Shown: positions 2,713 to 22,362 of the stretch, in pieces
Numbering within the stretch: the stretch's first letter is position 1
How the letters are laid out: each line of letters starts with the position of its first letter
DNA from: Alloalcanivorax mobilis
GTDB taxonomy: Bacteria; Pseudomonadota; Gammaproteobacteria; Pseudomonadales; Alcanivoracaceae
Direction: 5' to 3'
Assembly: GCF_002864685.1 (NCBI RefSeq)
Contig: NZ_NMQZ01000023.1
Location: forward strand, 1-64,000
DNA: 64,000 nucleotides
Program-made: the position numbers and the translations under genes
The notes under the pieces: generated by a model
Databases searched by the model: none
What the model was told of the DNA's origin: nothing
The model's input: only the letters and a program-made list of their open reading frames with translations

Positions 2713-2882
2713 GCCGGACGCCGGACGCCAGACGCCGGACGCTAGACGCCGGACGCTAAACCCCGGCCTGAAAGGCTCGGCTTGTTTCCTGCCAGACAGC
2801 GAGGCGTTGGCGGGAAACACGCCAATCCTGGACGCCTAGGGTTTAGCGTCCGGCGTCCGGCGTCCGGCGTCTAGCGTGTCGC
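2713..2882. repeat. Inverted heptamer array A (GCCGGAC family) between prpC and acnD
   Basis: Left arm 2713-2761 is seven tandem 7-mers of consensus GCCGGAC, with variants GCCAGAC, GCTAGAC and GCTAAAC. Right arm 2841-2875 is five 7-mers in reverse complement (GTTTAGC, three GTCCGGC, GTCTAGC), followed by a degenerate GTGTCGC at 2876-2882. The innermost units GCTAAAC and GTTTAGC pair exactly. Nested inside, on the same centre near 2801, is a second stem: GTTTCCTGCCA at 2784-2794 with TGGCGGGAAAC at 2808-2818. The right arm abuts the prpC stop codon, so the whole structure lies in the prpC-acnD spacer of the operon mRNA. See also arrays B and C. Confidence 0.85.
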
Positions 2883-2883
2883 A

Positions 2884-4008
2884 TTAACGCTCAGCAATCG
2901 GCACAACCTTACGCGGCTCCGGACCAACGTAATCCGCGCTGGGACGAATAATCCGGTTGTCGGCGCGCTGTTCGAACACATGGGCGGCCCAGCCGGTCAG
3001 GCGGCTCATCACGAAGATCGGTGTGAACAGCTTGGTGGGAATGTCCATGAAGTGGTAGGCGGAGGCGTGGAAGAAATCCGCGTTGCAGAACAATTTCTTC
3101 TCGCGCCACATCACCTCTTCACAGCGCACCGAGATGTTGTAGAGATTCTCATCACCGACATCCTTGGAGAGCTTTTCCGACCAGTGCTTGATGATGGCGT
3201 TGCGCGGGTCGGATTCGCTGTAGATCGCGTGGCCGAAGCCCATGATCTTTTCCTTGCGCTCGAGCATCCCCAGCATGCCTTTCTCGGCGTCTTCCGGGTC
3301 CTTGAACTTCTCGATCATCTCCATCGCCGCTTCGTTGGCGCCGCCGTGCAGCGGGCCACGCAGGGTACCGATGGCGCCGGTCACGCAGCTGTGCAGATCA
3401 CTCAGCGTGGAGGCGCAGACGCGGGCGGTGAAGGTGGAGGCATTGAACTCATGCTCCGCGTACAGAATCAGGGAAACGTGCATCACCGTTTCGTGCAGCT
3501 CGTTGGGCTTCTCGCCGCGCAGCAGATGCAGGAAATGAGCGCCGATGGAATCGTCGTCGGTTTCCGTTTCCACCCGCACGCCATCGTGGCTGTAGCGATA
3601 CCAGTAGCAAATAATGCTCGGGAACGCCGCCAGCAAGCGGTCGGTGGCATCCTGCTGCTGCTCGAAGTTCTGCTCGGTTTCCAGATTGCCGAGCATCGAA
3701 CAACCGGTGCGCATCACGTCCATCGGGTGCGCGTCCTTGGGAATCCGCTCAAGCACTTCCTTGAGCGCCTGGGGCAGGCCGCGCAGGCCCTTGAGCTTCT
3801 TCTTGTAAGCGTCCAGCCGTGCCTGGTCGGGCAGTTCGCCCTTGAGAATCAGATGCGCGACTTCCTCGAACTGGCAGTTTTCCGCCAGGTCTTTCACGTC
3901 ATAGCCGCGATAGGTGAGCCCGGAACCGGTTTTGCCCACCGTGGAGAGTGCCGTTTTGCCGGCGACCTGGCCACGCAGGCCGGCTCCGCCGAGTTGCTTC
4001 TCTGCCAT
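2884..4008 (-). CDS. prpC: 2-methylcitrate synthase PrpC
   Basis: Citrate-synthase-family enzyme of 374 residues condensing propionyl-CoA with oxaloacetate to 2-methylcitrate. Visible active-site motifs are the first His in YAEHEFNAST, the second His in GFGHAIYSESDPRN and the Asp in CNADFFHA; the LHGGANEAAMEM segment is also typical. The short length and the N-terminal region around KTGSGLTYRGYDVKDLAE favour PrpC over the longer housekeeping GltA. It sits 54 bases after prpB and is separated from acnD by about 207 bases that hold heptamer array A, so its 3' end is immediately followed by a strong potential RNA structure. Confidence 0.95.
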   Translation of the reverse strand: MAEKQLGGAGLRGQVAGKTALSTVGKTGSGLTYRGYDVKDLAENCQFEEVAHLILKGELPDQARLDAYKKKLKGLRGLPQALKEVLERIPKDAHPMDVMRTGCSMLGNLETEQNFEQQQDATDRLLAAFPSIICYWYRYSHDGVRVETETDDDSIGAHFLHLLRGEKPNELHETVMHVSLILYAEHEFNASTFTARVCASTLSDLHSCVTGAIGTLRGPLHGGANEAAMEMIEKFKDPEDAEKGMLGMLERKEKIMGFGHAIYSESDPRNAIIKHWSEKLSKDVGDENLYNISVRCEEVMWREKKLFCNADFFHASAYHFMDIPTKLFTPIFVMSRLTGWAAHVFEQRADNRIIRPSADYVGPEPRKVVPIAER

Positions 4009-4062
4009 CGTCCTTTTCCTCTTTATCGGTTGAAACGAATCAGTTTGATGCGGCCGACGCGG

Positions 4063-21500: not shown

Positions 21501-22250
21501 GCCATGCTGAAAAAGATCGTCGACGAAAAATGGCTGACCGCGCGCGGCGTGATCGGCTTCTGGCCGGCGCACTCGGACATGGACGACATCCATCTCTACC
21601 GCCAGCCCGGTGACGATCAGCCGTTCATGACCCTGCATCACCTGCGTCAGCAACTCGACCGCACCAAGAACCCGACCAAGCCGGACTATTGCCTCAGTGA
21701 TTTTATCGCGCCGGCGGAGAGCGGCAAGACCGATTGGCTGGGCGGCTTCGCGGTGACCAGCGGTATCGGCATTGATGAACATGTGGCCCGTTTCGAGGCG
21801 GACCACGATGATTATTCATCGATCATGATCAAGGCGCTCGCCGACCGTCTCGCCGAAGCCTTCGCGGAACGCCTGCACGAGCGGGTACGCAAGGAGTTCT
21901 GGGGCTACGACAGCGATGAAGCCCTGAGCAACGACGAGATGATTTCGGAAAAATACCGAGGCATCCGCCCCGCTCCCGGCTACCCGGCCTGCCCGGATCA
22001 CACCGAAAAAGCGTTGCTCTGGGAGTTGCTGGAACCGGAAAAGAACGCCGGCATGACGCTCACCGAATCCTACGCCATGCTGCCGGCGGCGGCGGTGTCC
22101 GGCTGGTATTTCTCGCACCCGGAATCGCGCTACTTCGGCACCGGCAAACTGGGCCGCGACCAGATGGACGACTACGCCGGCCGCAAAGGCATGCGCCGTA
22201 AAGAGATCGAAAAGATGGTGCCGCATTTGCTGGGGTACATCGAAGACTGA
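18549..22250 (+). CDS. metH: Cobalamin-dependent methionine synthase MetH
   Basis: Transfers a methyl group from 5-methyl-THF to homocysteine through cobalamin. It has 1233 residues in four modules. The homocysteine domain (about 1-330) has zinc ligands in GLNCALG and [10 protein letters not shown]. The pterin-binding domain is about 350-620 ([16 protein letters not shown]). The cobalamin cap and Rossmann domain are about 650-890, with lower-axial His761 in [14 protein letters not shown]. The SAM-binding reactivation domain is about 915-1233 ([15 protein letters not shown]). All modules look intact. A short leader and strong -10 box suggest constitutive or simply regulated expression. Array C lies just after the stop codon. 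Confidence 0.98.
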
Positions 22251-22261
22251 GCAACATAGAT

Positions 22262-22362
22262 AGCTACAAGCTACAAGCTGCAAGCTGCAAGCTGCAAGCT
22301 GCAAGCTGCAAAAAGACGACTGCGTGGTTGTCCTTGTCGCTTGCGGCTTGTAGCTTGCGGCC
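22262..22362. repeat. Inverted heptamer array C (AGCTGCA family) after metH
   Basis: Left arm 22262-22310: AGCTACA twice, then AGCTGCA five times, in perfect 7-base register. Right arm 22335-22362: TGTCGCT, TGCGGCT, TGTAGCT, TGCGGCC, which are degenerate reverse complements. The spacer is only 24 bases. The left arm starts 11 bases after the metH stop codon; the right arm ends 5 bases from the stop of the convergent gene. Same architecture as arrays A and B with a third unit sequence. Confidence 0.82.

Follow-up and report, generated by a model that had tools for sequence, protein, structure and literature searches.

Inverted heptamer-array pairs behind stop codons in Alloalcanivorax mobilis: probable families of dispersed palindromic repeats

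Three sites in a 64,000-nt stretch of the Alloalcanivorax mobilis genome (the window) each carry two facing arrays of 7-base units, with a different unit at each site, and thus raise the question of how one design came to be built from different sequences at the ends of genes. The initial annotation had offered two answers, namely a mechanism that generates tandem heptamers and copies them into the opposite arm, or selection for structure and not for sequence.

Three elements in the window

All three elements were present as claimed, and their 7-base period and two-arm inverted layout were confirmed. The elements and their flanking genes are:

82..2676, minus strand: acnD, flanking gene (NCBIfam TIGR02333, above cut-off)
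2712..2756, minus strand: element 1 (family F1), left arm, heptamer array with RGCGTCY on the minus strand
2757..2836, unstranded: element 1 core, 80 nt, with box A (TTGTTTCCTG ... GGGAAACA) within TAAACCC / GGGTTTA, homologous to other F1 and F5 cores
2837..2882, plus strand: element 1, right arm, GCGTCCG array adjoining the prpC stop codon
2884..4008, minus strand: prpC, flanking gene (NCBIfam NF009006, above cut-off)
5934..6950, plus strand: PabB-like flanking gene (best NCBIfam matches TIGR01824 and TIGR00553, both below cut-offs)
6940..6977, minus strand: element 2 (family F2), left arm, AACTTTY array on the minus strand
6978..7070, unstranded: element 2 core, 93 nt, containing the GTGCCCGCG box
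7071..7102, plus strand: element 2, right arm, AACTTTY array adjoining the thrH stop codon
7104..7721, minus strand: thrH, flanking gene (NCBIfam NF010109, above cut-off)
18549..22250, plus strand: metH, flanking gene (NCBIfam NF007024, above cut-off)
22262..22315, minus strand: element 3 (family F3), left arm, RGCTTGN array on the minus strand
22316..22332, unstranded: element 3 core, 17 nt
22333..22361, plus strand: element 3, right arm, RGCTTGN array
22368..24392, minus strand: flanking gene with weak PEP-synthase-like matches (every NCBIfam match far below cut-off)

With RNA folding parameters, elements 1, 2, and 3 were predicted to form long hairpins of -118.8, -67.1, and -58.6 kcal/mol, respectively. 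Element 1 sits between two genes of the same direction, with the prpC stop codon 1 nt away and the acnD start codon 35 nt away. Elements 2 and 3 occupy spaces where convergent genes meet and therefore have a stop codon close to both arms. The closest named relatives of PrpC were from Alcanivorax (95% identity) and Alloalcanivorax (94%).

At period 7, two strict array pairs were detected in the 64-kb window, plus element 3 as a single array accompanied by an inverted copy. Neither the other periods from 4 to 13 nor period 15 gave any such array in the window, and the two cases at period 14 were taken as a harmonic of 7. Twenty dinucleotide shuffles of the window likewise yielded none. When the whole window was searched against Rfam at the gathering score, only four tRNAs and none of the elements were matched, and element 1 had no match among the plasmids in PLSDB. 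The tRNA genes of the window form a cluster of three at 40349–40664 and a single gene at 17206–17279.

Unit families and placement at gene ends

A search across a large part of the genome with a shuffled control, along the lines that the initial annotation had proposed, found far more than three elements. Detection was unit-blind and covered 61 pieces of the source genome (1,239,680 bp, window included), a non-random sample of ~30% of the 4.10-Mb genome. These 1.24 Mb contained 100 inverted period-7 pairs, compared with none in one shuffle; inverted pairs at other periods in the same 61 pieces numbered 0 (period 5), 4 (6), 0 (8), 3 (9), 0 (10), 0 (11), 1 (12), 1 (13), and 7 (14, harmonic). Since the pieces were chosen from contigs with unit matches, an extrapolation to ~330 pairs in the whole genome is only rough. 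Pattern searches of the whole genome with three tandem units and at most three mismatches gave 729 matches for GCGTCCG (reversed control, 11), 291 for AGCTGCA (control, 21), and 299 for GTTGAAA. For the last of these there was no valid control, since reversing the unit merely rotates it. Matches in overlapping registers were counted separately in these searches, and a single 569-bp array inflates the AGCTGCA figure. This nearly perfect AGCTGCA array (L050:8042-8610, contig C27) far exceeds every other arm seen, and array lengths vary up to this size.

The heptamer unit consists of about five conserved bases and two variable ones. By unit core, the 100 pairs fell into F1 (RGCGTCY, 38), F2 (AACTTTY, 31), F3 (RGCTTGN, 17), F4 (ATCCTGN, 5), F5 (GACGTCN, 6), and three others, two of which (L142 and L154) had RGCGTGN units and one of which (L136) lay inside a gene and looked like chance. 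The three units of the window had been called unrelated; they do differ from one another at three to five positions when optimally rotated, but two of the rarer families are a single step from them. A skeleton R-N-C-N-T fits all six units of the source genome and not the AACTRTY unit of its relatives, and the unit list of the sample contained no G-rich, quadruplex-type unit (GGGANTN). Common descent of all unit families was not accepted from unit sequence: the spanning tree was 10 against a random mean of 13.7, and its P of 0.028 is only suggestive because the units were inspected beforehand. Solo arrays of AACTGAA, a unit absent from the called pairs, were seen at L043:16287, L147:18938, and L157:12000, and one F1 pair was nested inside an F3 pair (L169).

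The placement at stop codons reported for the window extended to the whole sample. With gene positions from a simple custom gene caller, the median distance on the stop side was 3 nt (87 of 117 within 12 nt), compared with 69 nt on the start side (5 of 69 within 12 nt). Ninety-nine of the 100 pairs lay outside genes. With several families pooled, the 100 pairs in 30% of the genome agree in number with REP/BIMEs, which are recognized by upwards of 100 palindromes between the genes of a genome. The 93 pairs that were classified were located between co-directional (53), convergent (32), and divergent (8) genes, while 879 background intergenic spaces comprised 591, 137, and 151, respectively. The folding z-score was below -3 in 91 of 94 elements. 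Terminator-like signals exceeded those of the elements' own shuffles in F1 (14/37 vs 5) and F2 (13/31 vs 4), but in F3 there were 0/16 vs 7 in the shuffles. A simple scan for a GC stem plus T run found such signals no more often than in ordinary convergent spacers (14/42), and the identification of the elements as intrinsic terminators was therefore rejected.

The distances to stops and starts, the excess of convergent spaces, the strong folding, and the signals in F1 and F2 are what would be expected of functional 3'-end structures under selection, whatever their origin, that act as bidirectional terminators or stabilisers of mRNA 3' ends. The terminator-like signals in ordinary convergent spacers and their absence from F3 speak against this reading, as do the little sign of arm covariation and the frequently empty sites in relatives described below, and we consider it unlikely. 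Selection for structure and not for sequence, as first suggested, found no support: no covariation was found between arms, and the paired bases next to core box A covaried at most weakly in 17 elements (P = 0.09), so that RNA-type covariation was rejected there as a signal.

The elements were spread unevenly, with 20 of 60 pieces empty compared with 11.4 expected. In the source genome, no believable pair was found in C12 40001-200000 or C1 1-200000, where convergent gene pairs are present. The dnaA gene is located at 188.8 kb of C1, inside this element-free stretch, which carries one solo F1 array (L133). Convergent gaps were shorter in 19 empty-region pieces (median 29.5 vs 135.5 nt). An origin-to-terminus gradient behind the empty regions was considered and rejected, since the two regions mapped in relatives followed no clear pattern. 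In an element-free region, an 8-base array of CGCTGGCA precedes a terminator-like hairpin at L135:8472-8535 and L133:11597, and a 65-base stretch of this array is 100% matched at an unrelated place in one relative (G019).

Polarity, cores, and probable copying between sites

Unit polarity was nearly invariant. The F1 unit core was forward in all 172 instances in right arms, and reverse in 200 and forward in one of those in left arms. F2 and F4 had no exceptions and F3 had one, while the F5 core is palindromic and its polarity is thus not scorable. Arms with at least three unit cores and less than 250 nt apart formed 57 inward, 0 outward, and 3 direct combinations, while those 1–6 kb apart in the 30% genome sample were oriented at random without an inward excess (15 inward, 12 outward, 28 direct). 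Of the 153 arms with at least three unit cores, 17 did not belong to any called element, and five of these 17 were no more than 150 nt from the end of a piece.

An arm copied from its partner should match that partner best, and no such preference was found. In a sliding test, the match value within elements and between elements was 0.719 and 0.721 for F1, 0.698 and 0.724 for F2, 0.657 and 0.641 for F3, 0.697 and 0.715 for F4, and 0.745 and 0.749 for F5, and an element's own arm was the best match in 4 of 97 elements. A unit-anchored test of the variable bases only showed no within-element excess at zero offset; at an offset of -1 unit, P was 0.05 for F1 and 0.047 for F2 out of nine comparisons. 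The proposal that heptamers are copied into the opposite arm is thus left without support.

At E < 0.01, there were 127 F1-F1 and 20 F1-F5 pairs of homologous cores, the closest being 93–95% identical, and elements with RGCGTCY, GACGTCN, and RGCGTGN units had homologous cores in common. Box A (GTGTTTCCTG and variants) was found in 17 of 37 F1 and three of six F5 elements, and 34 of its 43 sites in the sample were in cores. Box B (TTGCGGCTACGC and variants) had 15 of 16 sample sites in cores, one of them in an RGCGTGN element. The GTGCCCGCG box occurred in 15 of 31 F2 and two of five F4 elements, but it was also frequent outside them, as 21 of its 141 sites were in cores. The most similar cores also tended to be neighbours: of the 14 best same-family core matches, four had both partners within one 20-kb piece, compared with 0.48 expected from permutations (P = 0.001), and at a lower threshold this held for 7 of 39 pairs, compared with 1.23 expected. 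The best core pair (L155) resembles a short-range duplication, and the neighbour excess could alternatively come from local duplication or gene conversion.

Together, the shared cores, the fixed polarity, and the similarity of neighbours point to copying between sites. The initial annotation had argued that copying of one REP-like repeat does not explain the pattern. It was right that no single mobile repeat is involved, as there are several unit families; REP-like copying, on the other hand, fits the main families, which are themselves dispersed, with fixed polarity and, in F1, homologous cores. We therefore favour, as the probable explanation, that the elements are palindromic repeats of several families, dispersed and non-autonomous, which are copied locally and occupy the niche of REP/BIMEs. 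Each element has a core enclosed by two arms that face inward, both built from the heptamer array of its family, and copies would arise by distance-limited copying between sites. Single-strand transposition and template switching at forks are candidate routes, both of which would fit local copying without duplications. The arrays would then lengthen or shorten through 7-nt slippage, and copies would survive mainly directly behind stop codons. By analogy with what has been proposed for REP/BIMEs, the hairpin is possibly an mRNA 3'-end structure.

Growth in place would be an account without movement, in which terminator-like hairpins at the ends of genes gain tandem heptamers by 7-nt polymerase slippage and template switching at the hairpin mirrors these into the other arm. 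That period 7 alone stands out and that array lengths vary up to hundreds of base pairs is consistent with it, as is the 7-nt slippage preference proposed for heptamer repeats in PMC4692102. However, the same few units recur with fixed polarity at about 100 sites, the shared cores already largely contradict growth in place, and there was no excess of arm-to-arm matches, all of which make it quite improbable. If a protein that binds the chromosome recognized DNA in 7-bp steps, the arrays could be rows of its binding sites; this would account for the five conserved bases with a variable pair, for the fixed polarity, for the uneven spread, and for a core box whose sequence is better conserved than its pairing. 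Several unit families coexist, though, and different species have different families at one and the same site, and we give such arrays very little credence.

No candidate copier was found for the favoured families of copied repeats: searches for target duplications, for a clearly linked transposase, and for a longer copy were all negative. Thirty Y1_Tnp loci of the genus (three of the source genome and 27 of relatives, about 1.5 kb on each side) contained no inverted pair or array at 0.85 or better, and no RAYT gene flanked by two inverted repeat copies, the arrangement characteristic of REP/BIMEs, was seen. A weaker solo ACTGAAC array (L173:1295-1322) is located about 180 nt from a Y1-transposase match in the source genome. 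Shared words in the 20-nt flanks of 99 elements equalled those of permuted pairs, giving no sign of target site duplications, although short ones could be missed at the fuzzy arm ends. The random arm orientations at 1–6 kb in the 30% genome sample likewise gave no element inside a longer gene-carrying copy.

Relatives and known heptamer repeats

At the metH 3' end, eight of 11 relatives carried an element whose outer units always belonged to a family other than the F3 of the window. Three (G020, G021, and G026) had F2 units outside, and G020 also had a nested F3 pair and a REP box; four (G023, G024, G025, and G027) carried AACTRTY units and one (G029) carried F1. The remaining relatives had a REP box only (G022) or neither (G019 and G028). 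At the pabB/thrH site, AACTRTY elements were found in four of seven relatives, a REP box in two, and neither in one. An F1 element was present at the prpC/acnD site in one of nine relatives, Alloalcanivorax marinus SY10-13 (G022, L053), where its core carries box A, and the other eight had none. In 13 comparisons at nine other sites, ten showed no element, two a REP box, and one a solo array. It is these empty sites, 8/9 and 10/13, that weigh against conserved 3'-end function. Different units at one orthologous site indicate turnover, and REP boxes at the same sites in relatives indicate a shared niche behind stop codons. No clean empty site was readable at the 80–90% identity of the relatives, so movement as such was not seen. 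The REP box TAGGAGCGGC was absent from 58 pieces of the source genome, in which shorter REP-like words occur.

Among known systems, REP/BIMEs with RAYTs are similarly high-copy, species-specific, non-autonomous intergenic palindromes behind genes (PMC2817692), and REP-like boxes occupy the same orthologous sites as heptamer elements in some relatives. Unlike REP/BIMEs, the elements described here have heptamer arrays as arms, and none of the 30 Y1-transposase loci held an inverted pair. The view that no named class fits was nearly right, but facing heptamer pairs with another unit, the closest counterpart in print, exist in Xanthomonas. According to PMC4692102, many bacteria have more heptamer repeats than expected, for which neither cause nor function is established; the GGGAATC repeats of Xanthomonas and the GGGGA(C/T)T repeats of Nostoc are abundant intergenic arrays of unknown function; and two GGGAATC arrays face each other at close range in 70 and 75 cases in Xanthomonas. 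Like the present set, these repeats are intergenic heptamer arrays, with facing pairs in Xanthomonas, lie nearer to the end of the preceding gene than to the next gene, and are scarce between divergent genes (PMC4692102). They differ in that each genome has a single G-rich unit, which can form quadruplexes, and in that 83% of repeats are at the same genes in the sister species (PMC4692102), whereas here there are at least five units without three-G runs, the cores are shared, and relatives have other families at the same site. Facing heptamer pairs are already in print, and the Alloalcanivorax set is a variant with other units and several families.

Two further systems are less similar. The BrickBuilt MITE of Porphyromonas gingivalis also has a tandem array inside a palindromic, MITE-like intergenic element, but its 23-nt unit is in the middle, its inverted ends are small, and it has 19 copies (PMC4596501), while here the 7-nt units are the arms. 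The TAACTGA repeats of marine Beggiatoaceae are likewise abundant intergenic heptamers (169 sets in one draft genome), but they are direct, mostly before start codons, and of one unit, with a single inverted case (PMC4679880). The portions of open-licence Alcanivorax papers that were available contained no apparent description of such elements.

Whether the set deserves a class of its own is doubtful, and we put the idea forward only tentatively: a distinct class of bacterial repeats would consist of palindromes with heptamer-array arms, copied over short range by an enzyme or a fork-based process, in which both arms can switch unit while the core persists (F1, F5, RGCGTGN), and in which, during the divergence of species, one unit family or REP takes the place of another behind the same genes. 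In any case, several unit families, shared cores, a local-copying bias, and family exchange at one orthologous site can be read here in one genus, and growth in place and movement between sites can be told apart by strain comparison. A marine bacterium carries many hairpin-forming repeats of 7-base units behind gene ends, and related species have other kinds at the same spots.

The distribution of the families was patchy. F1 pattern matches in 13 genomes of the genus numbered 476, 428, 85, and otherwise 0–9, and 19 of 46 genomes of the family had any match. In a second genus of the family, six of 20 F1 loci held inverted pairs, one with box B (L296). F3 pattern matches were found in five of 369 genomes of the class, source genome included, and inverted F3 pairs were present in a genome of another family (G333). 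Strict period-7 pairs occurred in five of 80 named loci surrounding prpC (1.52 Mb; L053, L054, L055, L057, and L109), which are not independent of the element 1 site. The pair at L109:13847-13924, from Pseudoteredinibacter and thus outside Alcanivoracaceae, is an inverted heptamer pair with the unit GTGAGAT.
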